Origin: a virus
DNA: 31,789 bases
Reading direction: 5' to 3' (one strand)
Virus record (IMG/VR): IMGVR_UViG_3300002138_000087
Coordinates: 1-31,789 of that record
Shown: positions 4,117 through 31,789 of the stretch, piece by piece
Numbering within the stretch: the first letter of the stretch is position 1
Layout: every line of letters starts with the position of its first letter
Notes under the pieces: model-generated
Told to the model about the DNA's origin: nothing
What the model saw: the letters and a program-made list of their open reading frames with translations, nothing else
The model's database searches: none
Translations under genes and position numbers: made by a program

Positions 4117-4437
4117 TTATGTCACGACACTTACAGTTCGTTGATTCGCCTCATTGAGTACCCGACCCAAGGCAATTTTAACACCCAACGCTTTGTTGTA
4201 ACCCTCACTCTTGGAACAACGTGACTCTGCGACAATATCAACGCCGGTTGTAGTTGTCAACCTAATTTCCGTGACACCACCACGGGGATCAGCCGTCACG
4301 AATGAAGGAATCGCCGACAAATCACGTTGATATTGGGTCAACAGTTCCCAACGACGATTCACTGGATTGAAGTAACGACGCTTGTGCAGAACCATTACCT
4401 TGTTACCAGCCTTACGGAGTGAATGAATTGTAATCAT
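4117..4437 (-). CDS. Hypothetical protein (106 aa), leaderless
   Basis: The -35 TTGACT (4469-4474) and -10 TATATT (4447-4452) lie just before ATG 4437, leaving 9 nt between -10 and start. The protein is basic. Its C-terminal half (TEIRLTTTTGVDIVAES...SEGYNKALGVKIALGRVL) looks like one beta sheet plus a helix. No family was recognised. It is the last gene of the minus-strand block before the terminator at 3980-4009. Confidence 0.8.
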   Translation of the reverse strand: MITIHSLRKAGNKVMVLHKRRYFNPVNRRWELLTQYQRDLSAIPSFVTADPRGGVTEIRLTTTTGVDIVAESRCSKSEGYNKALGVKIALGRVLNEANQRTVSVVT

Positions 4438-4477
4438 ATTGGAGTTAATATATTCGAGGTTTATAGAAAGTCAACGG

Positions 4478-4684
4478 TTATTTGATGATGTTGATTGCGG
4501 AAATGTCTTCAATACGAATGTAAAGAGGACTGTTGGAAGGATGAATGCCATCCATCTCATAACTTTGAAGGACATTGTTTTTGTGCGTGTAGGAGATATT
4601 CTTGCACTTGACTTTGACAATCGAACCACCCTTGAGGTGAAATTCAACCAAAATATGCGTTTTCCAGAAAGAAGAAAGATTCAT
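4478..4684 (-). CDS. Hypothetical protein (68 aa)
   Basis: The chosen ATG (4684) comes 5 nt after the stop of the upstream gene, so the two form an operon. Starting earlier would require a TTG and overlap that gene. The protein is beta-rich (THILVEFHLKGGSIVKVKCKN) and could be a small Sm-like or OB-type barrel, but that is a guess. There is no Shine-Dalgarno sequence. Confidence 0.65.
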   Translation of the reverse strand: MNLSSFWKTHILVEFHLKGGSIVKVKCKNISYTHKNNVLQSYEMDGIHPSNSPLYIRIEDISAINIIK

Positions 4685-4689
4685 ACGAT

Positions 4690-4890
4690 TTACTTGACCC
4701 AATTGATTTTGACGATGGAAACTTCATTCAACTCGTTCGTTTTATAGTCCGCAGTCACCTTGTAACCCTGCAGAACTTTCTTTGCTGCGTCACTATCACC
4801 ATTTGCACGCCCAATGGAGTATGTCAATAGTGAAACAGTTGTGGTGAACAGTAGAAATGAGAATAAAAGTCCGGGTATTCCTGAATTCAT
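4690..4890 (-). CDS. Small membrane protein (66 aa), leaderless
   Basis: The promoter is TTGACT (4921-4926), 16 nt, TAATAT (4899-4904), with ATG 8 nt later at 4890. Residues 5-26 are a hydrophobic segment (GLLFSFLLFTTTVSLLTYS), followed by a soluble charged tail. It is a single-pass inner-membrane protein or has an uncleaved signal anchor. Function is unknown. The 68-aa gene follows in the same transcript. Confidence 0.75.
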   Translation of the reverse strand: MNSGIPGLLFSFLLFTTTVSLLTYSIGRANGDSDAAKKVLQGYKVTADYKTNELNEVSIVKINWVK

Positions 4891-4932
4891 ATAGATGGAT
4901 ATTACCGTGGTTTGATAAAAAGTCAACCGGTT

Positions 4933-5256
4933 TTAGATTTTTTCTACATTCGTCAACTTGATTTCATCTCTCCAAGTTTCGTAGAGTTTAATTTTAGCGT
5001 TGAGATAAACATGAAATGATTTGTCATTCTCAGTCAATTGTGACTCATCTGGGTGTTGAACCTCCCAACGGCCTAACATTCGATACAAGCCACTTAGTGC
5101 ATCAACGAATAGAGAATCCACTCTATCTCTCACTAATGCATCTGGGCCAAATTGGGGGTCAATGGTTGCCCCTTCGCCGAATGCTTTTGCGGCATTGTCG
5201 TCGGTTGGTAACAATCCCACTAGGGAAATTGAATAGGTAAATTTTGCGGTGTCCAT
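4933..5256 (-). CDS. Hypothetical protein (107 aa)
   Basis: ATG 5256 lies 4 nt after the stop of the upstream membrane-protein gene, so they are co-transcribed. The middle is helical (DRVDSLFVDALSGLYRMLGRW) and the C-terminus mixed (VYLNAKIKLYETWRDEIKL). It resembles small phage proteins that follow membrane-protein genes, but no domain was identified. Confidence 0.75.
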   Translation of the reverse strand: MDTAKFTYSISLVGLLPTDDNAAKAFGEGATIDPQFGPDALVRDRVDSLFVDALSGLYRMLGRWEVQHPDESQLTENDKSFHVYLNAKIKLYETWRDEIKLTNVEKI

Positions 5257-5260
5257 GGTA

Positions 5261-5413
5261 TCAGTCTTTCTTCACGCACATTCCAAGTCCAACGAATATG
5301 ACACCAGCTTGAATAAGCATACCACTACTTTTTGTTTCGGTAAACAACGCAAAACAAATGTCCACCACAATCCACACCACGCCGAGGATATACAACATTT
5401 TCTTGTCTAACAT
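5261..5413 (-). CDS. Small two-helix membrane protein (50 aa), leaderless
   Basis: ATG 5413, TGA 5261-5263. The promoter is TTGACA (5444-5449), 16 nt, TATAAC (5422-5427), with 8 nt from -10 to ATG. There are two hydrophobic stretches, at about residues 6-24 (MLYILGVVWIVVDICFALF) and 32-45, with a short Thr/Lys turn between and a Lys end. It is a small integral membrane protein of unknown role, first gene of a two-gene operon. Confidence 0.75.
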   Translation of the reverse strand: MLDKKMLYILGVVWIVVDICFALFTETKSSGMLIQAGVIFVGLGMCVKKD

Positions 5414-5463
5414 AGTTTTAAGTTATAGAAGATTTTTATGGAATGTCAATTTTAATTTTAAGG

Positions 5464-5586: not shown

Positions 5587-5591
5587 ATTAT

Positions 5592-6077: not shown

Positions 6078-6389
6078 TCAGTAGTTCGTCATTGGACAAC
6101 CATTCGTGACGAAATACATCATAGCCCGGTCAGGCTGTTCCACTGCGGCTTTGGCTCCGGCCAGACCCAATCCACCAACCAACTCACGCATACGCTTGAT
6201 TGCCGGAATCTTGTGGGAACTTGCGTAGGTATTGGGGAATTCCAGTCGAGTGACACGATAGATGGCTTCGACGTAATTCATTCCAGGGGTGGTAGGGGTG
6301 GTTTCGATGACTACATCCGTCACACCACTACAGGATTTACGAATCATTTCCGCTGCTTCAGCGAGGTTACATTGCAAGGTCATTTTCAT
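6078..6389 (-). CDS. bL12 (ribosomal protein L7/L12) C-terminal-like phage protein (103 aa)
   Basis: Residues about 60-85 (KIPAIKRMREL, GGLGLAGAKAAVEQ) match the signature helix-turn-helix of the bL12 C-terminal domain, which recruits GTPase factors to the ribosome. The region before it could supply the first strand and helix. The bL12 hinge and N-terminal dimerisation domain are absent. Phage-encoded bL12 is known from some viral genomes. By inference the protein may alter translation-factor binding. The promoter is TTGACA (6419-6424), 17 nt, TACATT (6396-6401), with 6 nt to ATG 6389. Confidence 0.7.
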   Translation of the reverse strand: MKMTLQCNLAEAAEMIRKSCSGVTDVVIETTPTTPGMNYVEAIYRVTRLEFPNTYASSHKIPAIKRMRELVGGLGLAGAKAAVEQPDRAMMYFVTNGCPMTNY

Positions 6390-6427
6390 TTTTATAATGT
6401 ATCAGTTGTTTGGGTAAATGTCAACGG

Positions 6428-6676
6428 TTAAACGGTAATTTTTGGTTTTCTCAATTCGAGTGGAATGAATTCGTCATTCACACATCCGCATGCGGTGCAG
6501 ATAAATACGGGAATGGGAACGTAAGAATCTTTTGCTGCTCCAGTAACAATACGGGAAACTTTCCGCATCATTACTGCTTCGCTGAAAGTAGTAGAATGAC
6601 ATTCGTCGCAAGATACTTCGGTGGTTGAGTCTAGTGTTACGCCAGCTTGTGGTGGTTTGTTATTTAATAAATCCAT
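6428..6676 (-). CDS. Zinc-ribbon phage protein (82 aa), leaderless
   Basis: Two Cys pairs, CDEC at about 23-26 and CTAC at about 60-63, bracket a helix-strand core (MMRKVSRIVTG, VPIPVFICTACG), a typical zinc ribbon. I have the impression of similar proteins in T4-like cyanophages, unverified. Role is unknown. The promoter is TTGACA (6709-6714), 17 nt, TAGTAT (6686-6691), with 9 nt to ATG 6676. That -35 contains the stop codon of the upstream gene. Confidence 0.82.
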   Translation of the reverse strand: MDLLNNKPPQAGVTLDSTTEVSCDECHSTTFSEAVMMRKVSRIVTGAAKDSYVPIPVFICTACGCVNDEFIPLELRKPKITV

Positions 6677-6710
6677 AGACCACCAATACTAACTCAACCA
6701 CCGAGGTTTG

Positions 6711-6911
6711 TCAAGAAGGTTGAACCATATCAAATGGCAGATAGGATTCATCTGCACCTTCCAAGTCGCCACCATCTTCATCAAACTGTTCACTATCGGC
6801 ATTTTCATAGACAGTCTCATCGCTTGCTATAAACTCTTGAGACACCCACTTGCCAGTTTCGGTATCAAACGTCTGAATAACGAATCCGAGTGTAATCTTT
6901 TTAACTTGCAT
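6711..6911 (-). CDS. Hypothetical acidic protein (66 aa), leaderless
   Basis: The promoter is TTGACT (6940-6945), 16 nt, TACTCT (6918-6923), with 6 nt to ATG 6911. The N-terminus is a beta hairpin-like KKITLGFVIQTFD followed by a strongly acidic tail (SEQFDEDGGDLEGADES). Its TGA is embedded in the promoter of the next gene. Function is unknown. Confidence 0.78.
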   Translation of the reverse strand: MQVKKITLGFVIQTFDTETGKWVSQEFIASDETVYENADSEQFDEDGGDLEGADESYLPFDMVQPS

Positions 6912-6962
6912 AAATGAAGAGTATATCTGTTCTATAAAAAGTCAACGGTTATTTCGTTTCTA

Positions 6963-7174: not shown

Positions 7175-7437
7175 TTATTCAGCCACGTAAATCTTTTCAC
7201 CAACAGACGTGTGGTTGTACACACCCTCACTAACCACGTAACTATTTGTTTCGACGATGGTTACATAGAAATATTCAATTCTTCCAGCACGGGAATAGAC
7301 GGATTTAACACTCTTTTCCAGAACCACCCCGGATATGTGTTCGGGATGATTCTTACCCACTGGCTTGCTGCACCCATCCAAAACGGGCAAGTAATGATAA
7401 CGATAAACAGAAACGAAAGAGTCACGAAAATCTTCAT
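7175..7437 (-). pseudogene. Lipoprotein-like gene with a one-base frameshift
   Basis: The promoter is TTGACT (7466-7471), 16 nt, TATTCT (7444-7449), 6 nt before ATG 7437. From that ATG the frame gives a signal peptide (MKIFVTLSFLFIVIITCPF), but the frame then drifts. The conserved-looking mature part (LDGCSKPVGKNHPEH...VGEKIYVAE, stop 7175) is in another frame. Adding one T to the T4 run (7380-7383 on the plus strand, as AAAA) joins the two and puts a Cys at a lipobox position. This could be a mutation, a sequencing indel or a programmed shift. Confidence 0.55.
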
Positions 7438-7480
7438 AAATTGAGAATATTTCAGATTTATAAAAAGTCAACGAAAATTT

Positions 7481-7750
7481 TCAATAACCCACGTTTTTTT
7501 CACCAAAAAGTTTGATGAATATTTCCGTTGGTCCAAAGGTGCTGAATGAGTTAAACTGATAACCGCCTTTGTAATCCCAAATGCCACAACGGACGCCATC
7601 GACGGTGAAACCCCAACTGTATTTCACCTTGTCGGGATCATCCTCACAGTTTGCGGGAAAGCCTAACACCTTTTCAATATCCTCGACAGAAAGGCCTGAC
7701 AATGAACCTGTACGAGAATCACCAACTTTATTTACTGCTTGAATCTTCAT
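7481..7750 (-). CDS. Hypothetical protein (89 aa), leaderless
   Basis: The promoter is TTGACA (7782-7787), 16 nt, TAACAT (7760-7765), with 9 nt to ATG 7750. The sequence (SVEDIEKVLGFPANCEDDPDKVKYSWGF followed by VRCGIWDYKGG) looks like a compact mixed alpha/beta fold, with the start of a helix that could dock a partner. No family is certain. Confidence 0.78.
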   Translation of the reverse strand: MKIQAVNKVGDSRTGSLSGLSVEDIEKVLGFPANCEDDPDKVKYSWGFTVDGVRCGIWDYKGGYQFNSFSTFGPTEIFIKLFGEKNVGY

Positions 7751-7800
7751 ATATACCTTATGTTATTTGATTGTGATAAAATGTCAATCCCTTTCGGGAA

Positions 7801-8121: not shown

Positions 8122-8823
8122 TTATGGTGAAACTACAAATCCAGACGTATCCGTTCTAGCTTTCCCTTTCGCAGTCAGTCCTACAATAACATTACTCGAA
8201 TCCAAAAATCGCAAATCCGTTTCATCTCCATCAATGACGGGATAACCCAAGTATGTATCTGGTAAATTTTTGAATACAACAGCAACATTACCACCAGCTT
8301 TCAAAACTCGCATCACAGATTCATCATTAGATTCACTTTTAGAAAATGTCAGATGATAGTTTTTAGGAAAATCACCGGTTAGAAATTTCATCATTCGTTT
8401 TTCTGATTTACTATAATCATAAAACTGGATATTAGGAAACATATCCATGACGTTTTTACCATCCACCAGTTGATCTTCCCAAGCAATGTCGCTGGTTCCA
8501 TTGATACGTATACACGGGGTGGTACCCCCCTTGGTACTGTCTTTGACGAGCTTGTTAATGTCAAAAATCAGACGTTTCATCCACAAATCGGTATTTTCAA
8601 AGAAAGACACCGTTTTATAAATTCGAGCCTTTTTGACGTTGGAGAAATTACCCATACCAGCGGTAAAGAGACACGCCTTGCGACAACCTTTCGACGCATT
8701 TGGACAAGTATTGTAACCAGATTCATCACTTGGAGCCAGATATGCTATCGCGGTTGAGTATCCTAGCTTATCACCCTTCACCGTTTTGGTATTCGTACCG
8801 ACGTTCAAAATTGGATTTTTCAT
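8122..8823 (-). CDS. gp88-family phage protein (233 aa)
   Basis: The N-terminal motif CPNASKGCRKACLFTAG, the AR-Y-T helix and the RINGTSDIAWED block match my recollection of the phage gene-product-88 family (Pfam GP88), whose function is not established. The three closely spaced Cys could bind metal. ATG 8823 is fixed by the promoter TTGACT (8854-8859), 16 nt, TAATCT (8832-8837), 8 nt before it. A longer frame runs back to 8892 but is an artefact of the promoter and a repeat. A GGTACC-type repeat inserts STKGGTTP before the RINGTSD block. Confidence 0.8.
   Translation of the reverse strand: MKNPILNVGTNTKTVKGDKLGYSTAIAYLAPSDESGYNTCPNASKGCRKACLFTAGMGNFSNVKKARIYKTVSFFENTDLWMKRLIFDINKLVKDSTKGGTTPCIRINGTSDIAWEDQLVDGKNVMDMFPNIQFYDYSKSEKRMMKFLTGDFPKNYHLTFSKSESNDESVMRVLKAGGNVAVVFKNLPDTYLGYPVIDGDETDLRFLDSSNVIVGLTAKGKARTDTSGFVVSP
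8515..8534. repeat. GGTACC-type palindrome, copy 3, inside the gp88-like CDS
   Basis: CGGGGTGGTACCCCCCTTGG is read in frame on the minus strand as a Gly-Gly-Thr-Thr-Pro loop. Confidence 0.55.
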
Positions 8824-8868
8824 ATACAAAGAGATTACAGGAAATTTATAAAAAGTCAACTGCCTATT

Positions 8869-8947: not shown

Positions 8948-9496
8948 TTAGATCTCGAACGTCGTGCCGTTCACCTTCACCGTCTCCAACTGCGACAGGT
9001 CCATCGCGAACTCACGGAAATTGCTAATGCTCAACTGCTTACGGACCTTGTTCTTAGCAATCGTCATAGGGGCCGACTTGACGGCCTTGAAAACACCCGG
9101 CGTAATGGAAACCTTGGTGTGCAACAGACCAAACAACTGCACCGTATTGTCAACGGTGTTAATGTTCACACCATTAGCCACCGGAATGTATTGGTCTTTC
9201 TTGGTGTAATCAGCATTCTGCTGACCGTTCTTGTGAGCTTCCAAGGTCTTTTTCAGACTGTCCATCACTTCGACAGACGCGGCCTTTTCCAACTCACCCC
9301 AAACCTCAGCATTCTCAGCCATGAGAATCTCCAATTCCGTCACACTCTTTTCCACAAGGGTATTGTAGGAAAAACCGAGGTTGACGGTGTAACGAGCAGT
9401 TTCGCCCGTTTTCTTAGTGGTGTAAACCAGAGATGCGAATTGGCAACCCTGAATACCTGCGACTTGTTTTGCAACTTTAGCAATGACGTTTTCCAT
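8948..9496 (-). CDS. Conserved hypothetical phage protein (182 aa), leaderless
   Basis: The promoter is TTGACT (9529-9534), 17 nt, TAGTAT (9506-9511), with 9 nt to ATG 9496. The N-terminal part is helix plus strand (VIAKVAKQVAGIQGCQFASL, TARYTVNLGFSYN). The middle has a charged helix, and the C-terminal part (TIAKNKVRKQLSISNFREFAM) is basic. GC content is higher than in the neighbouring nuclease genes, so it looks resident. Similar proteins occur in other phages by my recollection. Role is unknown; the own strong promoter and hairpin terminator suggest high expression. Confidence 0.82.
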   Translation of the reverse strand: MENVIAKVAKQVAGIQGCQFASLVYTTKKTGETARYTVNLGFSYNTLVEKSVTELEILMAENAEVWGELEKAASVEVMDSLKKTLEAHKNGQQNADYTKKDQYIPVANGVNINTVDNTVQLFGLLHTKVSITPGVFKAVKSAPMTIAKNKVRKQLSISNFREFAMDLSQLETVKVNGTTFEI

Positions 9497-9557
9497 ATTG
9501 ATCAAATACTACTTTAGGTTTAATAAAAAGTCAACGGTTATTTTATAGAAATTGAAA

Positions 9558-9899
9558 TTATTTCGTTTCAACCAAGGATTTTTCAACCAAGGCCAACAGC
9601 GTATCCTCCGGTATGAGGGAAGCAATTTGCTTGTGGTAACGAACCATTTTCCGGCGGAGCAGGTCCATTTGCTTTGGAGAAAGACTGCCACGGGAATTGT
9701 ATTGAACGGCGAATGAAGAAAGAATTTCCGCATCGCAACCACTAAACCCGATACCGTTTAGATTGTGAGTGCGACCAACGGCTTGCTCGTCCGCAGTCTG
9801 AAATTCATAGATACGAACCAAACCCCGCAATGTCCATGCATCGTTGTGGGCCAGTTGGTTTTTCACAAACTCAACAACTTGTTTCTTAGTGATTTTCAC
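9558..9899 (-). CDS. Conserved hypothetical phage protein (113 aa), GTG start
   Basis: The promoter is TTGACT (9929-9934), 16 nt, TAACTT (9907-9912), and 7 nt later comes GTG 9899. No ATG is near, so GTG is the start. The motifs RGLVRIYEFQTADEQ, GIGFSGCDAEILSSFA and SLSPKQMDLLRRKM recall a phage family that I have seen but whose role is not known. It is entirely soluble and mostly helical. Confidence 0.82.
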   Translation of the reverse strand: MKITKKQVVEFVKNQLAHNDAWTLRGLVRIYEFQTADEQAVGRTHNLNGIGFSGCDAEILSSFAVQYNSRGSLSPKQMDLLRRKMVRYHKQIASLIPEDTLLALVEKSLVETK

Positions 9900-9980
9900 A
9901 ATCAGTAAGTTATTAAATTTCTATAAAAAGTCAATAGGTAATACAAATTATTTTAACATTCTACGTTACCGTTAAAGTGA

Positions 9981-10056: not shown

Positions 10057-10145
10057 AGAATATCATAAAATGCTTCGGAGTCAACGGTTATTTTATACAA
10101 AGTGATTATTGACAATTTATAAAAAACCGGTAATGTAATCCCGGT

Positions 10146-10358
10146 ATGAATGCACATAATCTTGAAGAACTGAAAAACGACGATACTGGTTTTCTGGAAT
10201 CGTGCGACAAGTGCAATGCATTCATCTACAATTGGTATTGGATGGGTAGGTCGTTTGTCACCTATGACAATCTGATTGTGTGCAACGTCTGTCGCACTCA
10301 GGTGGTGATTGAAACCATTGCAAATCGTGAGCTTCATAAGTTAGGGGTAATTCGATAA
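10146..10358 (+). CDS. Zinc-ribbon protein (70 aa), leaderless
   Basis: First gene of the plus-strand block. The promoter is TTGACA (10109-10114), 16 nt, TAATGT (10131-10136), with 9 nt to ATG 10146. Two Cys pairs, CDKC (about 20-23) and CNVC (about 47-50), flank a Trp/Tyr-rich strand pair, as in treble-clef or rubredoxin-like zinc ribbons. The C-terminus is a short helix. It is probably a nucleic-acid or protein adaptor; function is unknown. Confidence 0.82.
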   Translation: MNAHNLEELKNDDTGFLESCDKCNAFIYNWYWMGRSFVTYDNLIVCNVCRTQVVIETIANRELHKLGVIR

Positions 10359-10905: not shown

Positions 10906-10943
10906 AAGCCCTTCCGGTGAAAGCTGGAAGGGCTTGACTTTTT
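10906..10943 (+). terminator. Terminator fused to the next promoter
   Basis: A perfect 10-bp stem AAGCCCTTCC (10906-10915) / GGAAGGGCTT (10926-10935) overlaps the TTGACT (10934-10939) of the following promoter, whose TTTTT (10939-10943) would serve as the U tract. Confidence 0.8.
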
Positions 10944-10970
10944 ATAGAATTCCATTATATTTTAACCACG

Positions 10971-11225
10971 ATGACACCTGAACAGATACGAGAATTCAAT
11001 CGAGTTGCAAAAGGAACACCGATGAGTAAGACGCATGATGTATCCACACTTGGTTGGATTGTCGTCATAATCTTCTCATGCATCATGGTTTACTGTGTTG
11101 TCAACTCCGAAGATGGCGCAGTGACGCGAGTGGATGGTTGCCAGTATCTGCGATTTTATACGGGTCGGGGATTCGATTACACCCATAAAGGTGACTGTGA
11201 TAATCCTATCCACTATAAAAAGTAA
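10971..11225 (+). CDS. Single-pass membrane protein with Cys-containing C-terminal domain (84 aa)
   Basis: The promoter is TTGACT (10934-10939), 16 nt, TATATT (10956-10961), with 9 nt to ATG 10971. Residues 29-45 form a transmembrane helix (WIVVIIFSCIMVYCVV). The C-terminal part (RVDGCQYLRFY, YTHKGDCDNPIHY) is a motif that I recall from many small phage membrane proteins, probably exposed outside the membrane with its two Cys paired. Function is unknown. Confidence 0.82.
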   Translation: MTPEQIREFNRVAKGTPMSKTHDVSTLGWIVVIIFSCIMVYCVVNSEDGAVTRVDGCQYLRFYTGRGFDYTHKGDCDNPIHYKK

Positions 11226-11264
11226 TGGTTGACTTTTGATAAATGACTGATAATCTTTAACCAC

Positions 11265-11459
11265 ATGAATATAACCTATCTCCAACTCCTTGAACGTCTC
11301 AAGAAAATGTCCGGTGAAGAATTGAATCAAAATGTCAGTATCGCCATGGACGACAGCGAAGAAGTTTTGCCTGTCAAAAAGGTTGACACAACCACCAAGG
11401 GTGATTGGACCGATGATATTTTGGACCGTGGACATATCGTGTTACGTGTGAACTTTTAA
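11265..11459 (+). CDS. Hypothetical protein (64 aa), leaderless
   Basis: The promoter is TTGACT (11229-11234), 16 nt, TAATCT (11251-11256), with 8 nt to ATG 11265. An N-terminal helix (YLQLLERLKKMSGEELNQ) precedes strands (VSIAMDDSEEVLPVKKV and HIVLRVNF). This pattern is common in small phage proteins that modify or mask host factors, but nothing specific can be claimed. Confidence 0.8.
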   Translation: MNITYLQLLERLKKMSGEELNQNVSIAMDDSEEVLPVKKVDTTTKGDWTDDILDRGHIVLRVNF

Positions 11460-11879: not shown

Positions 11880-11926
11880 AATTAGTAATTGACTTTTTAT
11901 AACAACTCAGGTAGTCTTTGATCATA

Positions 11927-23973: not shown

Positions 23974-23979
23974 TCGCAT

Positions 23980-24183
23980 ATGGAAGCTACTTGGACAATT
24001 GAAGATTTTACAACGGCAACGGGTCGTGCGCCTGAACAGGATGACTTGGAGCGGTGCAACTGCCCTGATGCTGGTCAACTTGCTCATCAATCTTGTGGCG
24101 TCTGCAAAGAACATAAGATGCCGGTGTTCATGTGCCGAGTATGTTTCAGCAAATGCTTCAAGCCGGGATTTGAACGACTGTAA
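23980..24183 (+). CDS. Zinc-binding protein (67 aa)
   Basis: ATG 23980 is 6 nt after the previous stop. The family-like block DDLERCNCPDAGQLAHQSCG, then VCKEHKMPVFMCRVCFSKCF, contains eight Cys and two His in knuckle spacing and probably binds one or two zinc ions. I recall related proteins in other phages. Likely a structural zinc protein; target unknown. Confidence 0.82.
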   Translation: MEATWTIEDFTTATGRAPEQDDLERCNCPDAGQLAHQSCGVCKEHKMPVFMCRVCFSKCFKPGFERL

Positions 24184-24227
24184 AATAATCGTTGACATTC
24201 CAAACAAATCAAGTATAGTCATTACAT

Positions 24228-24422
24228 ATGAAACACAAGCTCATCAACTTCAAGACCAAGCAAGAAGTTCAAATCGGTGACACGGTGACAGATTTTCGTG
24301 GTGACAATAGCAAGGTGACTGACTTTGCCGCTCCAAAACATTCCGCCAGCACCGGACGAATCTACACAGAGCATGGCGCATTCTTTCCGTCTGTGTATGG
24401 CTGCGAGATTGTTGCGGCCTAA
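24228..24422 (+). CDS. Conserved small phage protein (64 aa), leaderless
   Basis: The promoter is TTGACA (24192-24197), 16 nt, TATAGT (24214-24219), with 8 nt to ATG 24228. The pattern TVTDFRGDNSKVTDFAAPKH, then SASTGRIYTEHG and FFPSVYG, is one that I recognise from a widespread phage family of unknown function, probably a small beta barrel. Followed after 12 nt by a Cys-rich gene. Confidence 0.85.
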   Translation: MKHKLINFKTKQEVQIGDTVTDFRGDNSKVTDFAAPKHSASTGRIYTEHGAFFPSVYGCEIVAA

Positions 24423-24587: not shown

Positions 24588-24630
24588 AAACCTGTTGACA
24601 ACCTGAATATCTTTGATAACATGTTCCCAT

Positions 24631-24747
24631 ATGAAAGACCTACCTAAGTACATCAACGTTCGTGTGAAACGAATCATCACGGCAAAGTTTGGTGTAACTC
24701 TTTACCCTAACCGGGTTTATGAAGCCGAACGAGACGGGCCGAACTAA
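24631..24747 (+). CDS. Leaderless small protein ending RDGPN (38 aa)
   Basis: The promoter is TTGACA (24595-24600), 16 nt, TAACAT (24617-24622), with 8 nt to ATG 24631. The body is basic (KYINVRVKRIITAKFGVTLY), and the end ERDGPN-stop recurs at 29837-29872 in a shorter ORF with synonymous codon changes. The ORF 3' end is part of a structured RNA. It may be a leader peptide whose translation affects that RNA. Confidence 0.6.
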   Translation: MKDLPKYINVRVKRIITAKFGVTLYPNRVYEAERDGPN

Positions 24748-24867: not shown

Positions 24868-24912
24868 CAAATCCCTTGACTTTTTATCAACTTTTGGTAG
24901 TCTATTTTCACA

Positions 24913-25194
24913 ATGAATATCAACATGGACGACGCAAACCGTTTGAATGAACTCCACAATGAAATGATGGAGATACTCAACGAATTCAAGGACATCTGCC
25001 GTGGTGCTATGACGCCACGGGAATATGAAATGTTTCGGTATAAGACGTTGGCTCACTTGGAACCGGGACTTGAACGTGATTGTGAGTGGGTGACAACCTT
25101 TTCCGCAATCACTCCCTTGGACGCAGTTGTGGAATTGGCTCAAGATTCGGTGGTGGAAGATGAGAATGAAGACAGTGAAGATGAAGCCAACTAA
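24913..25194 (+). CDS. Hypothetical acidic helical protein (93 aa), leaderless
   Basis: The promoter is TTGACT (24876-24881), 16 nt, TAGTCT (24898-24903), with 9 nt to ATG 24913. A long N-terminal helix (DANRLNELHNEMMEILNEFK) is followed by helix pairs and an acidic tail (EDENEDSEDEAN). Sits right behind the structured RNA. Function unknown. Confidence 0.8.
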   Translation: MNINMDDANRLNELHNEMMEILNEFKDICRGAMTPREYEMFRYKTLAHLEPGLERDCEWVTTFSAITPLDAVVELAQDSVVEDENEDSEDEAN

Positions 25195-25235
25195 GGCTTG
25201 ACGTTTCGATAATAATCAAGTAATCTCTTACCACA

Positions 25236-25445
25236 ATGAATAACAACCCAATCGTCAAAGGTTCAGTGGTCAAATACAAGGATGGTTACCAACGGGTGAC
25301 TACCTTGTTCAAGAAGACCGCAAACATCGGTGGTATCTTCAACGGGAAGATTTATCACAAGGGCGTTCCTCTTTCGGAGTTGACAGAAGCTCATGAAGAG
25401 TGGTATGCTATGTGGCAACAGTCGGAAACGTATCAATCAATGTAA
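25236..25445 (+). CDS. Conserved small phage protein (69 aa), leaderless
   Basis: The promoter is TTGACG (25198-25203), 17 nt, TAATCT (25221-25226), with 9 nt to ATG 25236. A KOW/SH3-like beta arrangement (IVKGSVVKYKDGYQRVTTLF, IFNGKIYHKGVPLSEL) and a C-terminal helix. I recall this pattern from other phages. Function unknown. Confidence 0.8.
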   Translation: MNNNPIVKGSVVKYKDGYQRVTTLFKKTANIGGIFNGKIYHKGVPLSELTEAHEEWYAMWQQSETYQSM

Positions 25446-25658: not shown

Positions 25659-26332
25659 TCATTGTCCGTTTTCCAGTGTAACGGGGTCAAGACACTGGAC
25701 TTTTTTTCCTATCCAAGTAGAATGTTTGGATTGACATATTCGTTTGACAGTTGATTTAGACACGTTGAATTTCAATTCAAATTCATTCTTAGTGCCACAA
25801 AATTCTTCTTGAGTTTTGATATTTGAGAAGTTATATTGTTGAGTCGAGGTTTTACCTTTATTCCAAGCGGTTTGACAATTTTTTAATCCCTTATTCCACG
25901 CAACTTGTGTGGCTTTAGTTAAACCAGTCAATCCTTTGTTCCAAGGAATATTTCCCACACGAAATCCTCTATTGGAATTATTTTGATATGATTGCCGTGT
26001 TGATTCTCTTAATTTTTGTCGTGTAACAGCACTGACTACACGATTGGCATATCCTCCGGTTGTGAGATTGTAACCACCTTCATTCCAATCTCTAAAAGAA
26101 CGTTGATTGGCTATATGTTTGATTTCCAACTCATCAAGTAACAAATCGTTATCCGTTGTTTCTAGTATAGAGAATGTAAAATTGTCAAGGCCATATTTTC
26201 GGAATGCATTGTATAAGGGAGCATTTCGTTTACATCGTTTATGAACTTGCCATCTCTTTTCAACTCGTTGATTGGTCTGACCAACATAACGGTCACCGGT
26301 AATATTATTGACTGTTTGATGTTTTCTGATAA
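25659..26332 (-). pseudogene. GIY-YIG endonuclease, N-terminus replaced by a promoter
   Basis: The open frame from 26332 contains VNNITGDRYVGQTNQRVEKR (the YIG strand), PLYNAFRKYGLDNFTFSILE, LLLDELEIKHIA and GYNLTTGGYANR. A series of NUMOD-like repeats with WNKG follows. The first strand (GIY) and a start codon are missing. That DNA instead holds the promoter (26308-26335) of the plus-strand gene at 26342. A shorter TTG-started product from 26144 would lack the catalytic core. Probably inactive. Confidence 0.75.
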
Positions 26333-26341
26333 TCTTGTTTT

Positions 26342-26569
26342 ATGAATCATATCTTGGAAGAAACTGCACGAGAGTATCTTAGAACGAATCTGGTTAAGAT
26401 GCCAGAGGGTTGGCAGTTTGTCTTTCGTATGATGTATGGTCGTAAAAATGGTAAACGGAGTGTGGAAGATACCGTGGCTATGGATATAAATGAAGTGCCA
26501 AGGGAGAAGTTGGATTGGGCCATGCAACAGGCGGAAAATAGTTTGAAAAAACTAGAGAAAGTAAGTTGA
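26342..26569 (+). CDS. Hypothetical helical protein (75 aa), leaderless
   Basis: The promoter is TTGACT (26308-26313), 16 nt, TAATCT (26330-26335), with 6 nt to ATG 26342. Helix (HILEETAREYLRTNLVKMPE), strand (WQFVFRMMYGRK) and helix (REKLDWAMQQAENSLKKLEK). The stop TGA is nested in the next TTGACA. Its promoter is antisense inside the GIY-YIG remnant. Confidence 0.8.
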   Translation: MNHILEETAREYLRTNLVKMPEGWQFVFRMMYGRKNGKRSVEDTVAMDINEVPREKLDWAMQQAENSLKKLEKVS

Positions 26570-26602
26570 CATTTTATCGTTTTGGTGTAGTCTTTTTTCA
26601 CA

Positions 26603-26866
26603 ATGAACAAAGAACCAAATACCGAAGTCAACGCACGTATTAAGCAATCGCTGTCGAACTACATCAGCGAAGTGAAGAAGTCCAAGAACGGAAGCTACTC
26701 CGGCTTTATTTGCGGTGGTTCAATCACATGGTCGGTTACCACCACGGACACCATCAACTTCGTCATCACGATTGACGGTCAACGGAAAAATGTAATCAGC
26801 ATCGAGAGCAGTGAAGGTGGTCTGACCTACGCGCTCAAGTCCGTCATTGCGATTGTAGAAGAATAG
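26603..26866 (+). CDS. Hypothetical protein (87 aa), leaderless
   Basis: The promoter is TTGACA (26566-26571), 16 nt, TAGTCT (26588-26593), with 9 nt to ATG 26603. An N-terminal helix (NARIKQSLSNYISEVKKSKN) and four strands (SITWSVTTTDTINFVITIDG, KNVISIESSEGG) with a final helix suggest a compact alpha/beta fold. No family recognised. Confidence 0.8.
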   Translation: MNKEPNTEVNARIKQSLSNYISEVKKSKNGSYSGFICGGSITWSVTTTDTINFVITIDGQRKNVISIESSEGGLTYALKSVIAIVEE

Positions 26867-27248: not shown

Positions 27249-27332
27249 TTGACTACGGTTGAAGTGGTTATCTCCGATGACGATTTGAAACGTCTGGATG
27301 AAGTCGGAATTAAGTATAAAATCAAGTATTGA
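27249..27332 (+). CDS. Small ORF with TTG start (27 aa), uncertain
   Basis: TTG 27249 opens a coding-like frame (TTVEVVISDDDLKRLDEVGI) that ends at the TGA inside the next TTGACA. It could be a real small protein or the tail of a decayed gene. Upstream, 27158-27264 holds another start-less frame with protein-like composition (GVKIVSNLADNPSDNQIRKY). Confidence 0.4.
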   Translation: MTTVEVVISDDDLKRLDEVGIKYKIKY

Positions 27333-27366
27333 CAATCGGCGCAACTTAATATAATGTATTTACACA

Positions 27367-27711
27367 ATGAACACTATCACTTGCACAACGATTCGTGAGT
27401 TGAACTTCGCCAAGGCCGCAACTCCGGTGGTTATCCCCATGGGCACCACCATTCAACTCTACTTCAAGACAGAGAAGCCTGCTCGTGCTTATTTCATGCA
27501 CAACGGCATTGAACGTCCGTTGTCTGTGTCTCATCTTCACCTCACCGTCAAGAGTTCATCCGTCAAGTTTCGCAAGGCTCCGAGTCTCCGAGCCATGGAA
27601 AAGGCCAATGACGCTGGTGTTATGACAACGGTGACAGGTGCGAAGGTTGAACCGGATGGTCACGACGAATACGGTGCGGCCAGTTGGTTGTTGGTAATGG
27701 GATTGATTTAA
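27367..27711 (+). CDS. Conserved phage protein (114 aa), leaderless
   Basis: The promoter is TTGACA (27329-27334), 15 nt, consensus TATAAT (27350-27355), with 11 nt to ATG 27367. An N-terminal strand-rich part (PVVIPMGTTIQLYFKT) is followed by the block KAPSLRAMEKANDAGVMTTV, VEPDGHDEYGAASWLL. I recognise that block from a widespread phage family of unknown function that ends SWLLxxGLI. Confidence 0.85.
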   Translation: MNTITCTTIRELNFAKAATPVVIPMGTTIQLYFKTEKPARAYFMHNGIERPLSVSHLHLTVKSSSVKFRKAPSLRAMEKANDAGVMTTVTGAKVEPDGHDEYGAASWLLVMGLI

Positions 27712-27751
27712 TAGTTGACAATTCAACGACTTAATATAACCCGTTTTCACA

Positions 27752-27988
27752 ATGAACGAATACTTCGCCGTTAGCACCGAACAAATCGAAACTCTCATGA
27801 ATGAGACGTTGTGTAACTACTCTAATGCCAAGAACTTGAATGAAATGGGTGTATTTGGTGGAACGGCTCTTGGAATTATAACGGTGATTGTCAATATCCC
27901 CGGTTATCCACAAGCAAAGATTGATGAGTATCGTTTGCGCATCGAAGGTCTTAGTGACTTACTTCGTAACACAAACTTCCACTCTTGA
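27752..27988 (+). CDS. Hypothetical protein (78 aa), leaderless
   Basis: A promoter of the array type, TTGACA (27715-27720), has TATAAC at 27735-27740 (14-nt spacer) and 11 nt to ATG 27752. Helical N-terminus (STEQIETLMNETLCNYSNAK), hydrophobic middle (GTALGIITVIVNIP) and C-terminal helix. The hydrophobic part may be buried or membrane-associated. The stop TGA lies in the next TTGACA. Confidence 0.78.
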   Translation: MNEYFAVSTEQIETLMNETLCNYSNAKNLNEMGVFGGTALGIITVIVNIPGYPQAKIDEYRLRIEGLSDLLRNTNFHS

Positions 27989-28019
27989 CAACCGGCCCAT
28001 CGGTGTTATTTTAACTTTA

Positions 28020-28397
28020 ATGGATACAGAACCAACAAAACCAGTAGAACAACCAACCGAAATCAGTTACGAATCACAGGTTCGTAGAGATGCTCTGATG
28101 CTCGTCGCATTGGGGGCGATTCTTCATCGAGTAGTCGAGTTCGACGGCCAACCCAAAGATGAGGAACTACATATATTAACTCAAATAAGTGGTTATCTGA
28201 ATGGTCAGTTAGAGGATGACGATGATGAAGATGAAGATGAAGATGAAGTGGAAAGTGATGTGGAAACACTCAATATGGAGATTCACCAATTGCAACTTCA
28301 AGTAGCTAGGTTGGAGACATCTTTGGCTCAAGAACGGTTGGCAACAGAAAGAGAAAGAGAAAGAACAAGAGAAGCTGAGAAACGGTGGTGGAAGTAA
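28020..28397 (+). CDS. Acidic coiled-coil protein (125 aa), leaderless
   Basis: The promoter is TTGACA (27985-27990), 16 nt, TATTTT (28007-28012), with 7 nt to ATG 28020. A helical region (VRRDALMLVALGAILHRVVE) and an acidic run (EDDDDEDEDEDEVESD) lead into a long heptad-type helix (LNMEIHQLQLQVARLETSL) that ends very basic. The layout suggests an oligomer with a charged hinge. Role unknown. Confidence 0.78.
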   Translation: MDTEPTKPVEQPTEISYESQVRRDALMLVALGAILHRVVEFDGQPKDEELHILTQISGYLNGQLEDDDDEDEDEDEVESDVETLNMEIHQLQLQVARLETSLAQERLATERERERTREAEKRWWK

Positions 28398-28573: not shown

Positions 28574-28626
28574 AAATAAATAAACGAGATCGTTGACATT
28601 TTATAAAACTGGTATAGTCTTTGGTC

Positions 28627-29157
28627 ATGAACTTGACCAAAGACCTTATCACTCGTTTGGAAAACAAAATAGTCGAAACCCTGTTACTGGCTCAAAAACG
28701 ATATAATCGTGTATTTGATATTCCCACGATAGAGTTTGGTGATATGGGAAACATCGCGGGAAAGGCGTTTCGTTACGGTAACAAAGTGGCTTTCTCTCCC
28801 ACACTTTATTCACAGAACATTGAAACTTTTCTTAACCGGACGGTTCCTCACGAAGTCGCACACCTCGTTTGTTTTCAGGTGTATCCTTTCGCAAAACAAG
28901 GTCATGGTCCTGAATGGCGGAGTGTGATGCGTAATCTGGAAGTTGCGGATATTGGCCGTTGTCATTCCTACGACACTACATCGGTTAAGAAACGGATTTT
29001 CAAGAAATTTGCGTTGGATTGTAGGTGTGGTGTTGGACACATCAAAGTCACGGCGAAAATCAAGAACAAAATTGAAAAAGGTGTAATTTATACCTGTCGG
29101 ACATGCAAATCGGTGATTGGTAATCCACCGAAAAAAACAAACTATCTCTACCAATAG
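28627..29157 (+). CDS. SprT-like zinc metalloprotease (176 aa)
   Basis: The catalytic motif is H75-E-V-A-H79, with a third ligand in QGHGPEW (His93), as in SprT/Spartan proteins. The C-terminal zinc ribbon has CRC (132-134) and CRTC (157-160). Family members degrade proteins crosslinked to DNA; here it may protect phage DNA or remodel host nucleoprotein. The promoter is TTGACA (28593-28598), 16 nt, TAGTCT (28615-28620), with 6 nt to ATG 28627, so it is leaderless. An upstream TTG at 28621 is unlikely. About full length for a phage member. Confidence 0.9.
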   Translation: MNLTKDLITRLENKIVETLLLAQKRYNRVFDIPTIEFGDMGNIAGKAFRYGNKVAFSPTLYSQNIETFLNRTVPHEVAHLVCFQVYPFAKQGHGPEWRSVMRNLEVADIGRCHSYDTTSVKKRIFKKFALDCRCGVGHIKVTAKIKNKIEKGVIYTCRTCKSVIGNPPKKTNYLYQ

Positions 29158-29195
29158 TGGTTGACATTTTATAAAATTAACATAATATCACTCAC

Positions 29196-29345
29196 ATGAC
29201 AAACAAAGAGAAATTTGACACGTTGAACGAGGCCATTTTCAAACTCCGTGAGGATTGGAGTTTACCCTTCTGGCAACTTCCACCAGATGAACGATTGAAT
29301 CGGAAAATTGAGTTGGTGGACAATGTTGGCTCTGTAAACTGTTGA
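29196..29345 (+). CDS. Small helical protein (49 aa), leaderless
   Basis: The promoter is TTGACA (29161-29166), 16 nt, TAATAT (29183-29188), with 7 nt to ATG 29196. One long helix (KEKFDTLNEAIFKLREDW), a Trp-Pro turn and a second helix. The stop TGA is inside the next TTGACT. Unknown role. Confidence 0.7.
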   Translation: MTNKEKFDTLNEAIFKLREDWSLPFWQLPPDERLNRKIELVDNVGSVNC

Positions 29346-29376
29346 CTTTCTAAAAAACTTCTATATTATCTCAAAT

Positions 29377-29799
29377 ATGAATCACAAACAATATATCACC
29401 GAGGGAACAATCATCGTTGTCAACACCAACAGTTACCGAAACTCGTTTAATGAAACTGGAAAACACGTTGGTTTCGATAGTGCTGGCTTTCTCGCACTTT
29501 TGGCCGCACCCAAGCTCGGCGGTTTTGATTGGCATCGAGTGGACAAGGATGGTTCAGTGCATATCAATCAATTTGCAGGTCATGACTTGCATACAATTGG
29601 CAAGTTCACCAAGACCGGTGACTGGAAAATTCTCACCGAGAAAGAACTTGATGCGATGGTTAAAGAAAACGTCAAGGTGAGATACACCATTTCCGTGGAG
29701 TGTGAAGACGGCGATATTCCGCTGCAAAATTTGGGTGATATTCTTTCTGGTATCAACTACAAAACTCTGACGGTTAAAAGTATTCAGAGGGTTTCTTAA
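29377..29799 (+). CDS. Hypothetical protein (140 aa), leaderless
   Basis: The promoter is TTGACT (29342-29347), 16 nt, TATTAT (29364-29369), with 7 nt to ATG 29377. Strand-rich N-terminus (ITEGTIIVVNTNSYRNSFNE), a body with GGFDWHRVDKDGSVHINQF, and a C-terminal ferredoxin-like strand (KVRYTISVECEDGD). Looks like a two-domain alpha/beta protein. No family recognised. Confidence 0.8.
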   Translation: MNHKQYITEGTIIVVNTNSYRNSFNETGKHVGFDSAGFLALLAAPKLGGFDWHRVDKDGSVHINQFAGHDLHTIGKFTKTGDWKILTEKELDAMVKENVKVRYTISVECEDGDIPLQNLGDILSGINYKTLTVKSIQRVS

Positions 29800-29836
29800 T
29801 TGTTGACAATTGTATAATAACTGGTAAATTAATTAT

Positions 29837-29872
29837 ATGAAACTAAGAAACGCTCGTGACGGTCCTAACTGA
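29837..29872 (+). CDS. Leaderless 11-aa peptide ending RDGPN
   Basis: The promoter is TTGACA (29803-29808), 16 nt, TAAATT (29825-29830), with 6 nt to ATG 29837. The peptide MKLRNARDGPN has the same last five residues as the 38-aa protein at 24631, with different third bases, and is followed by copy 2 of the structured RNA. Confidence 0.5.
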   Translation: MKLRNARDGPN

Positions 29873-29992: not shown

Positions 29993-30031
29993 TATTGACT
30001 TTTTATAAATGTTTGGTAATCTATTTTCAAT

Positions 30032-30235
30032 ATGAACGACGAAATTGAACTTACCACCGAATCCGAAGAATCTGACTTTGGTTTTGAAGATAGTCACTTG
30101 GAATCGGCTTACGAAGAACGAACGGAGATTGACGAAGAACCGTATGATGGTGGTGGATGGTCGGGTGATGGTTCGGGAATGGATGACTTGGCCGATTACA
30201 ACGCAAACGAGGCGGATGACTATTGTGACGAATAA
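30032..30235 (+). CDS. Highly acidic protein (67 aa), leaderless
   Basis: The promoter is TTGACT (29995-30000), 16 nt, TAATCT (30017-30022), with 9 nt to ATG 30032. Roughly a third of residues are Asp or Glu, with almost no Lys or Arg, and a Gly-rich turn (YDGGGWSGDGSG). Probably disordered; a DNA-mimic or RNA-polymerase-binding role is possible but untested. Confidence 0.75.
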   Translation: MNDEIELTTESEESDFGFEDSHLESAYEERTEIDEEPYDGGGWSGDGSGMDDLADYNANEADDYCDE

Positions 30236-30274
30236 TTGTTGACTTCCTATAAATCCTACGATAATATCTCACAT

Positions 30275-30622
30275 ATGAACGTAACTGTATCACAAGTTTC
30301 CAACGATTCCATTCGTTTTAGCAATGGGTAATCTCTTTATTCTGAACACCGACAAGATTGTTGTGAACATCACTGGTTGTCATTTGAACATCTGACCATT
30401 GCGGATTTCGTGGGGATGGAGTTTGACCTTGACGGCGACTTCTTTGAAAAGGTGGATGGTTACGGCATTCGATTGAAGCCCGTCAATGGTCATCCGGTTG
30501 CGGTTCCCGGTTATGGTTCTAACAACGGGTATTACAGTTCGGATTTGACTCTTACGTTGTGTGGTGGAGAGAAGCCATCAAGGGAGTTTGATATATCCGA
30601 GTGTCAGGAAATTTCAGGTTAA
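30275..30622 (+). pseudogene. Conserved phage protein interrupted by an in-frame TAA (116 codons)
   Basis: The promoter is TTGACT (30239-30244), 17 nt, TAATAT (30262-30267), with 7 nt to ATG 30275. The frame reads MNVTVSQVSNDSIRFSNG, then TAA at 30329-30331 (codon 19). It continues in phase through SLYSEHRQDCCEHHW and GVGM-like core blocks (DFVGMEFDLDG, GYGSNNGYYSSDLTL) to TAA 30620-30622. The whole reading frame matches a family that I recall with NG...LYSxHxQDCCE near its start. The stop is therefore a nonsense change or a readthrough site. Confidence 0.7.
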
Positions 30623-30664
30623 AAGGTTGTTGACTTTTTATAAACCCTTGGTATCGTGACTCAT

Positions 30665-30991
30665 ATGTGTATCATCTCCGAAGGCGTAACCAATGAAGAA
30701 GTCTTGACTCAACTGCAGAGTGAGTTGAAGAAGGCCGAGGGTGTTATCTTCGCAACCTCAGAAACCCTCGCATACAAACGTAACCTGTTGCAAGGCATTC
30801 GTATTGTCGAGACGGTGATTGACTACAACCGCATGGAAAAGGAACTGGCTGACTTGAGAAAGGCCGCCGCAGGTCTGTTGAGTGATTGGGAAGATCAGTT
30901 CGGTGAAGGTCAATGTGACTGTCGCCCGGAGCCAGAGAATGATGGTCACGTATGCAACTCGTGCCGAGTTCACGCATTGGTGAATAATTAA
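30665..30991 (+). CDS. Coiled-coil protein with C-terminal Cys motif (108 aa), leaderless
   Basis: The promoter is TTGACT (30630-30635), 16 nt, TATCGT (30652-30657), with 7 nt to ATG 30665. Long helices (LTQLQSELKKAEGVIFATSE, NRMEKELADLRKAAAGLLSD) suggest a helical hairpin or dimer. The C-terminus has CDC...CNSC, a possible zinc site. Function unknown. Confidence 0.78.
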   Translation: MCIISEGVTNEEVLTQLQSELKKAEGVIFATSETLAYKRNLLQGIRIVETVIDYNRMEKELADLRKAAAGLLSDWEDQFGEGQCDCRPEPENDGHVCNSCRVHALVNN

Positions 30992-31055
30992 ATGAATATT
31001 AATAATGTTCAAGTAATCGTTGACATTTTATAATAACCAAGTAGAGTTCATTCAC

Positions 31056-31241
31056 ATGACTAAACAATACGACACTGAATTCTACCGCGCAGATGTTACC
31101 GTTCGTGATGAAGATGGTGTGATGCATGTGAATCACCCCGCACCGGTTGAAGCTCGTAGTCGTCAGGAAGCGTGGGAAATCTTCTACTACGGTCAGTTCT
31201 ACGGTAACGTGACGGTTTTGAATGTCGAAGTTCACGGTTAA
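31056..31241 (+). CDS. Small hypothetical protein (61 aa), leaderless
   Basis: The promoter is TTGACA (31020-31025), 16 nt, TAGAGT (31042-31047), with 8 nt to ATG 31056. The sequence (FYRADVTVRDEDGVMHVNHP, EAWEIFYYGQFYGNVTVLNV) suggests a small beta-alpha-beta fold. A longer frame starting inside the -35 is an artefact. Unknown role. Confidence 0.75.
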   Translation: MTKQYDTEFYRADVTVRDEDGVMHVNHPAPVEARSRQEAWEIFYYGQFYGNVTVLNVEVHG

Positions 31242-31258
31242 TACTTTCAATTAGATTT

Positions 31259-31624
31259 ATGAATAAAAAACTAAAAGTCGGAGATGAAGTCGTATTTACT
31301 AGGGTTCCCAAGAAGAACGAATACTTTGATGGGTTTGATAACTCTATCAACGCGGATATGTCAACCTTGGCAAGAAAACATAAGAAGAACAAGACTGTTT
31401 TTGTTATTCAAGCTATCAATTCTTCGGGTATCTCTATTCGTGGAGAGGAATGGTATTGGCCCGCGCAAGTGTTTGCATTGACAAATGAATCGTCGATTGA
31501 CTTGGGAGTTGAATTCACCACGTTGAAAGCCACTCACCAAAAGCGAGGGAAACTTATTGCACAAATCGAGTCGGGTAAAGAAAATTTGGAAAGTCTCTTG
31601 GCTGAGTTGAAAAGTCTCAAGTAA
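31259..31624 (+). CDS. Hypothetical protein (121 aa)
   Basis: ATG 31259, 17 nt after the previous stop, so co-transcribed. The N-terminal half is beta-rich and KOW-like (KVGDEVVFTRVPKKNEYFDG, VFVIQAINSSGISIRGEEWY). The C-terminal half is a long charged helix (HQKRGKLIAQIESGKENLES). No Shine-Dalgarno. Function unknown. Confidence 0.78.
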   Translation: MNKKLKVGDEVVFTRVPKKNEYFDGFDNSINADMSTLARKHKKNKTVFVIQAINSSGISIRGEEWYWPAQVFALTNESSIDLGVEFTTLKATHQKRGKLIAQIESGKENLESLLAELKSLK

Positions 31625-31661
31625 TGGTTGACTTTCTATAAATTTAACGTAGAGTTTTCCC

Positions 31662-31789
31662 ATGAAAGCAAACTTTAATGATGTGGTAATGTTTCGGTTG
31701 GATGGGAGTGTGGAAGGAATTGGTATAGTGACGGAAGTCCATTCACACTCCTATCACGTTCTCTTGACTGAACCATGTAAGGAGTTTGA
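31662..31789 (+). CDS. 5' part of a hypothetical gene (cut by the window end)
   Basis: The promoter is TTGACT (31628-31633), 16 nt, TAGAGT (31650-31655), with 6 nt to ATG 31662. The visible 42 codons (NDVVMFRLDGSVEGIGIVTE, YHVLLTEPCKEF) look like an SH3-like beta barrel start. The frame is still open at the last base. Confidence 0.65.
   Translation, partial: MKANFNDVVMFRLDGSVEGIGIVTEVHSHSYHVLLTEPCKEF

Follow-up and report, generated by a model that had tools for sequence, protein, structure and literature searches.

The virus record IMGVR_UViG_3300002138_000087 of IMG/VR, 31,789 bases long and hereafter called the window, carries on both strands dozens of near-identical promoters that stand only a few nucleotides (nt) before start codons. 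We consider it very likely that this array belongs to a group of T4-like jumbo phages whose messenger RNAs (mRNAs), for early and for late genes alike, have no leader or almost none, with transcription predicted from the promoter sequences to begin at the AUG or within three nt of it. The window itself is best explained as the part of an uncultured T4-like jumbo myovirus that carries its early genes, the early timing being presumed.

From position 5863 to its end the window overlaps contig G001 (IMGVR_UViG_3300002143_000079, 80,335 bases) at 98-99.9% identity; judged by this identity, G001 is the same virus, and it reaches about 54 kb past the right end of the window. The extension contains T4-like virion genes, among them those for terminase, baseplate wedge and the gp23/gp20-type head proteins that characterize T4-like myoviruses (major head protein, phrog_138, 4e-69; portal, phrog_213, 2e-59). 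Compared by portal protein, the closest cultured phages, Flavobacterium phage immuto and Microcystis phage Mel-JY01, are 53% identical, and no near nucleotide match to the window was found among named phages. One window protein led to two larger relatives: G002, of 279 kb and at 62% identity, and G003, of 194 kb and at 50%. The promoter pattern played no part in the selection of G001, G002, G003 or the window, and several of the further contigs G005-G026 were found through the pattern itself.

A fixed promoter geometry shared by large phages and absent from cultured relatives

The pattern TTGACN{16,18}TANNNTN{6,9}ATG matched the window 43 times on both strands, against a single match for the reversed control, and a near-identical pattern was observed 44 times where first-order Markov (dinucleotide) shuffles of the window gave an expectation of 0.4. 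The window holds 60 pairs of TTGAC and TAnnnT; the first ATG lies 5-10 nt downstream in 43 of them, and 39 of these 43 ATGs open a reading frame (ORF) of at least 25 codons. Of 47 genes called without any promoter term, about 34 have a TAnnnT whose end lies 6-9 nt ahead of the start codon, over a background of about 0.55 per position. The two hexamers are separated by 15-18 nt, nearly always 16-17, and thus conform to sigma70-type promoters, in which TTGACA-like and TAnnnT hexamers stand about 17 nt apart; an extended -10 (TGn) is present at 11 of 32 window sites and at 51 of 75 sites in the relative G008. The distance d, the number of nt between the -10 and the ATG, is 6-9 in the window, and in a few extra copies of the array one element is weaker or the start codon is GTG. 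The spacer between the hexamers is itself conserved in the window (TTTTTATAAA, 11.4 bits), and the 15 nt upstream of the promoters have low information (3.7 bits) and are mostly A/T. Many promoters occupy the entire gap between neighbouring genes, and the occurrence of some promoterless genes close behind a promoter-led gene suggests short operons.

These counts agree with the initial annotation of this DNA, which had described more than 40 near-identical promoters beside ATGs. Its figures need adjustment: the hexamer gap had been given as 14-17 nt and the distance to the ATG as 6-11 nt, and the array, placed at 4117-31789, begins slightly earlier, with a site at 2153-2193, and continues past the window into G001.

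Distance statistics were pooled from nine phage sequences, after removal of exact copies of the query pattern where the pattern had found the record. ORF-opening ATGs are concentrated at 6 nt (153), 7 nt (68), 8 nt (59) and 9 nt (78) and fall off from 10 nt (14) onwards, and the distance is exactly 6 nt at 40 of the 57 near sites in G002 and at 57 of the 85 in G008. Where d is 6, the base 7 nt past the -10 coincides with the A of the ATG. At sites with d of 9 it is again A in 63 of 78 cases, compared with 106 of 297 for the same ATG-relative place (-3) at other distances (P=7e-13), and at sites with d of 8 in 40 of 61 cases compared with 121 of 314 (P=1e-4). At sites with d of 7-9 the predicted initiating A lies 1-3 nt upstream of the AUG, typically in the context C-A-C-A-AUG, for which a 3-nt ACA leader is predicted. 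Since this A tracks the promoter rather than the start codon, as expected of a transcription start, the predicted leaders are 0-3 nt long.

Shine-Dalgarno cores, sought from -4 to -18, precede none of the 27 promoter-led genes and none of the 19 other called genes of the window, the inner genes of the putative operons included, as the initial annotation had also stated. They are likewise missing from the promoter-led genes of G006, G008, G016 and G018, and the same treatment of Mel-JY01 gave cores in 31% of genes.

The array was found in G001, G002, G003 and about 20 further contigs, several of them larger than 200-350 kb; many have tens of sites, with controls near zero (57 matches against 1 in G002, 88 against 0 in G008, 98 against 4 in G006 and 84 against 3 in G005). 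It is absent from immuto and Mel-JY01 (1 against 6 and 3 against 3 control matches), from Rhodothermus phage RM378 and from a 484-kb phage genome. The GP88-homologue loci of other, unrelated phages, taken as controls (L011-L051), almost all lack the motif, with 3 sites each in L045 and L046. When homologue pairs were aligned from residue 1, 7 of 11 were promoter-led in both phages, 5 of these at equal distance, and the promoter sequences differed between the two partners. The spacer consensus TTTTTATAAA is common to the window and G013 (9.5 bits), and G002, G006 and G008 have other consensus sequences. As the arrangement of -35, -10 and ATG stays constant while spacers vary by lineage, the geometry is conserved and the spacer drifts. 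Together, the geometry, the lack of Shine-Dalgarno cores, the anchored A, the 6-nt spacing in diverged relatives and the absence from cultured relatives support the initial proposal that transcription of this tiny-gene array would start at or next to the ATG; the short leader is thereby retained, and its proposed range of 0-5 nt contracts to a predicted 0-3 nt.

A second motif is associated with the structural genes of G001, which mostly lack TTGAC and often have TATTTAT just before the ATG. In the array phages TATTTAT ends 3-8 nt before the ATG in 107 of 182 upstream copies, compared with 4 of 60 in immuto and Mel-JY01 (P=1.4e-13). Upstream of genes TATTTAT is enriched, whereas the T4-like late box TATAAATA generally is not (in G006, 8 copies against 10.7 expected). 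We read TATTTAT as a putative late promoter, probably also leaderless or nearly so, its timing being suggested by gene content.

Alternative explanations and known systems

Several points weigh against leaderless expression as proposed here. Gene starts were called with a simple program of our own making and with pattern scans, and the transcript start sites are predictions that lean on the promoter-anchored A. Two of the 8 promoter-led genes of G003 do have Shine-Dalgarno cores, a small sample. The distance in the window varies from 6 to 9, which would give many mRNAs leaders of 1-3 nt and not zero, and the pattern-found relatives, several of G005-G026, remain a biased selection. The late class is an average over many genomes, with its timing taken from gene content.

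The strong conservation of TTTTTATAAA in the window, together with its resemblance to a TATAAA hexamer, would suit ordinary leadered genes, in which the spacer element TTTTATAAA acts as the real -10, or as a T4-late-like TATAAATA box, transcription begins about 15-18 nt before the AUG and TAnnnT is incidental. We judge this very improbable, because the spacers of G002, G006 and G008 lack TATAAA and yet TTGAC, TAnnnT and the short distance are kept, because the A anchored 7 nt past TAnnnT points to a start site there, and because the would-be leader contains no Shine-Dalgarno site and the late box lacks general enrichment. Equally far-fetched, in our assessment, is a by-product of compaction, by which short intergenic gaps place promoters beside ATGs and no selection acts on how far the start site is from the AUG. 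Phage genes are dense and the promoters often fill the whole gap, as such a process would have it; however, promoter-led genes with upstream gaps of more than 100 nt still hold distances of nearly always 6-9 nt (15 genes in the window, 22 in G002 and 23 in G008, gap sizes being possibly overstated where the simple caller missed small genes). Compaction does not predict the exact 6-nt peaks or the promoter-anchored A, and the cultured relatives place TATTTAT at dispersed distances.

Promoter copying, an extra factor or a preference of the host could lie behind the conserved spacer. T4-like phages are known to have mobile early promoters, and a lineage-specific spacer consensus is what spread within a lineage would leave; uniformity by copying or gene conversion, and not by selection, would explain the spacer and is compatible with leaderless expression. 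We hold it to be a possible but minor explanation, since the 3.7 bits upstream of the window promoters would make the copied units short and since copying alone does not predict a geometry kept across lineages with different spacers. Somewhat less probable, and on balance unlikely, is a factor-dependent promoter class whose spacer is read by an additional phage- or host-encoded protein, as by MotA at T4 middle promoters. The information content of the spacer in the window and G013 speaks for such a factor, as do the sigma-like proteins encoded by G003, G009, G010 and G025. On the other side, near-consensus -35 and -10 elements should need no activator, the window, G001 and G002, records that may be fragments, yielded no sigma-like protein, and no candidate factor was identified. 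The suggestion of the initial annotation that the spacer implies an extra factor is thus not established, as the spacer differs by lineage while the geometry is constant.

The preferred reading, leaderless or near-leaderless expression, has partial precedents. Most middle and late mRNAs of Thermus phage phiYS40 are leaderless (review PMC3594737). The phages described here resemble it as tailed phages with a large class of, in this case predicted, leaderless transcripts, and differ from its middle/late class in having a sigma70-type class with a full -35 before dozens of small, presumably early genes, plus a start-proximal late-type motif. The expression strategy of phiYS40 also includes a rise of IF2 and a fall of IF3 during infection. 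In bacterial TA-led leaderless genes (Zheng et al. 2011, PMC3160421; Actinobacteria, Deinococcus-Thermus) the start codon follows TANNNT at about 12 bp, a spacing equal to the d of 6 that dominates G002 and G008, the window covering 6-9; such genes are also defined by the lack of a Shine-Dalgarno sequence, which the window genes share. Those genes are scattered in cellular genomes, whereas here a phage array is formed, with near-consensus -35 elements, a conserved spacer and more than one site per kb. Promoters of the giant phage AR9 have been mapped genome-wide; this phage is like the array phages in size and unlike them, on the prediction made here, in its leaders of 26-491 nt, and it has its own multisubunit RNA polymerases (PMC5312081). 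With T4 the array phages share the gp23/gp20-type virion genes and an AT-rich late-type box, which is TATTTAT(A) and not TATAAATA and lies few nt from the AUG. Genes of T4 differ in having leaders with Shine-Dalgarno sites. Immuto and Mel-JY01 share the TATTTAT motif, but in dispersed positions and without the TTGAC/TAnnnT/ATG array, and Mel-JY01 uses Shine-Dalgarno sites. In a limited search of the open-access literature, we found no description of T4-like jumbo phages with an early multi-promoter leaderless array or with a leaderless design across the whole genome.

Candidate hosts, individual sites and neighbouring features

Sites of the form TTGAC-N17-TAnnnT-N6/7-ATG number in the tens in many genomes of the candidate phylum WOR-3 (G038, G046-G104) and are few in controls (166 against 0 in G088), so that leaderless genes appear to be in wide use there; Verrucomicrobiota/Lentisphaerota show a weaker excess of leaderless-geometry sites. 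In one WOR-3 genome Shine-Dalgarno sites are in use as well (27% against 4%), and no host is therefore assigned to the phages: the counts show that hosts with such geometry exist and do not indicate which one is infected. Bacteroidota were considered and rejected, as their genomes have no excess of the leaderless geometry and their promoter type (TAnnTTTG) does not fit; this -7 element is not enriched in the window (0 against 1.4 expected) or in G002 (8 against 9.8). A search of 84,980 genomes for the promoter pattern gave 109 scattered single matches and no array, and ribosomal protein S21, used as a host clue, had no match in 25 records. The window encodes a TnpB-like protein at 18036-19238 (-), without obvious TnpA, and a search for TnpB DNA in 395 Bacteroidota genomes, made without a positive control, returned no match, a negative that carries no information.

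Table 1. Array promoters of the window with the genes or ORFs they precede, and one late-type motif; d as defined in the text
Feature	Position	Strand	d (nt)	Gene and remarks
promoter, ATG	2153..2193	+	9	
promoter, ATG	4435..4474	-	9	gene 4117-4437
promoter, ATG	4888..4926	-	8	gene 4690-4890
promoter, ATG	5411..5449	-	6	gene 5261-5413; 18-nt spacer
promoter, ATG	6387..6424	-	6	gene 6078-6389
promoter, ATG	6674..6714	-	9	gene 6428-6676
promoter, ATG	6909..6945	-	6	gene 6711-6911
promoter, ATG	7435..7471	-	6	ORF 7261-7437
promoter, ATG	7748..7787	-	9	gene 7481-7750
promoter, ATG	8821..8859	-	8	GP88-family gene 8122-8823
promoter, ATG	9494..9534	-	9	gene 8948-9496
promoter, GTG	9897..9934	-	7	gene 9558-9899; GTG start read from sequence
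promoter, ATG	10109..10148	+	9	gene 10146-10358
promoter, ATG	10934..10973	+	9	gene 10971-11225
promoter, ATG	11229..11267	+	8	gene 11265-11459
promoter, ATG	11889..11929	+	9	gene 11927-12289
promoter, ATG	12642..12680	+	8	gene 12678-12818
promoter, ATG	13315..13353	+	8	gene 13351-13551
promoter, ATG	13889..13926	+	7	ORF 13924-13995
late-type motif (A)TATTTAT	16613..16629	+		just before ATG of GIY-YIG-like ORF 16627-17418; motif read from sequence
promoter, ATG	17415..17452	+	7	gene 17450-17737; G013 homologue also promoter-led
promoter, ATG	19936..19975	+	9	gene 19973-20197
promoter, ATG	20427..20466	+	8	gene 20464-20871
promoter, ATG	21738..21774	+	6	gene 21772-22359; homologues also promoter-led in G002 (d=6) and G018 (d=9)
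promoter, ATG	22572..22610	+	7	gene 22608-22784
promoter, ATG	22781..22818	+	7	gene 22816-23067; site overlaps end of preceding gene
promoter, ATG	23064..23101	+	7	gene 23099-23329
promoter, ATG	23431..23467	+	6	gene 23465-23602; G008 homologue also d=6
promoter, ATG	23944..23982	+	8	gene 23980-24183
promoter, ATG	24192..24230	+	8	gene 24228-24422; G013 homologue also d=8
promoter, ATG	24595..24633	+	8	gene 24631-24747
promoter, ATG	24876..24915	+	9	gene 24913-25194
promoter, ATG	25198..25238	+	9	gene 25236-25445
promoter, ATG	26308..26344	+	6	gene 26342-26569
promoter, ATG	26566..26605	+	9	gene 26603-26866
promoter, ATG	27329..27369	+	9 or 11	gene 27367-27711
promoter, imperfect -10	27716..27754	+		gene 27752-27988; read from sequence
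promoter, ATG	27985..28022	+	7	gene 28020-28397
promoter, ATG	28593..28629	+	6	SprT-like gene 28627-29157
promoter, ATG	29161..29198	+	7	gene 29196-29345
promoter, ATG	29342..29379	+	7	gene 29377-29799
promoter, ATG	29803..29839	+	6	very short ORF running into structured RNA
promoter, ATG	29995..30034	+	9	gene 30032-30235
promoter, ATG	30239..30277	+	7	short ORF from 30275
promoter, ATG	30630..30667	+	7	gene 30665-30991
promoter, ATG	31020..31058	+	8	gene 31056-31241
promoter, ATG	31628..31664	+	6	gene from 31662

Several structured RNAs lie among these genes. One such RNA, about 140 nt long and without an Rfam match, occurs twice, at 24734-24876 and 29859-29996 (+), in copies that are about 72% identical; both begin inside the end of a predicted leaderless ORF ending in ...RDGPN-stop, and an array promoter directly follows each. 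The gap before the gene at 26978 contains a complete-looking type II hammerhead ribozyme (26872-26927, +; 27.6 bits, Rfam cut-off 37) with the core pieces GAAA, GUC and CUGACGA, and folding reproduces its three stems. A CyVA-1 RNA match at 13791-13870 (+) is below threshold (37.6 bits against a cut-off of 41.4, E 4e-5), and a tRNA-like gene at 5464-5586 (-) is enlarged in the anticodon arm by about 42 bases, which may fold into a hairpin. Several ORFs that look HNH- or GIY-YIG-like on visual inspection are at 2543-3079, 5592-6017, 16627-17418 and 25659-26144, and the left end of the window (1-115) is a 15-base tandem repeat (taacgaggacgaata).

In the relatives, the array promoters of G008 have a conserved ACGC directly 5' of TTGAC (L319-L329), and a different motif near start codons, (A)GTGTAAT, is present in G003 (L071-L080) at about 18 of 188 genes, where 1 is expected, and stands mostly 7-10 nt ahead of the ATG. 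Array phages encode tmRNAs (L064 6390-6804, L208 12887-13278, L086 6991-7366), whose tag peptides are unusual and in two cases long (e.g. AKPNRLSTLDFSFEVNPAMEVTSMEAEFAMA). Among the 38 tRNA genes of G002 is one with a CUA anticodon (240539-240614, -; in L064), called as tRNA-Pyl and a possible amber suppressor.

Proposed expression programme and its implications

Under leaderless expression, each small gene would mostly have its own strong sigma70-type promoter: a -35 of TTGAC(A/T), 15-18 nt, and a -10 of TAnnnT, sometimes with TGn. Most likely the host housekeeping RNA polymerase, of the sigma70 family, would read these near-consensus promoters once the DNA enters the cell. The initiating A, 7 nt past the -10, would be the A of the AUG where d is 6 and would lie 1-3 nt upstream where d is 7-9, and the small genes would each yield their own mRNA, with the AUG at its 5' end or preceded by 1-3 nt. 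Ribosomes would then start at the 5'-terminal AUG without Shine-Dalgarno contact, presumably by leaderless translation of the 70S type. Late genes of the virus and its relatives would use TATTTAT(A), few nt from the AUG, and the design therefore appears genome-wide. A wider proposition is that a widespread group of uncultured T4-like jumbo phages has reset the whole programme, both the early sigma70-type and the late TATTTAT-type classes, such that the start codon is the transcription start and leaderless translation the default, probably with a ribosome, of the host or modified by the phage, that favours mRNAs with a 5' AUG; for this we see about equal grounds for belief and doubt.

So far, work on leaderless translation has usually dealt with single genes or with a small number of host groups. 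If the reading proposed here is true, phages bringing in dozens of leaderless messages at once would offer a natural setting in which to study how ribosome, initiation factors and host state determine the choice of leaderless mRNA, and their arrays could show whether phages evade competition with, or shut-off of, Shine-Dalgarno translation. A promoter 6-9 nt from the ATG would also be a sharp rule for recognizing tiny phage genes and their starts, and for spotting this phage group in metagenomes.

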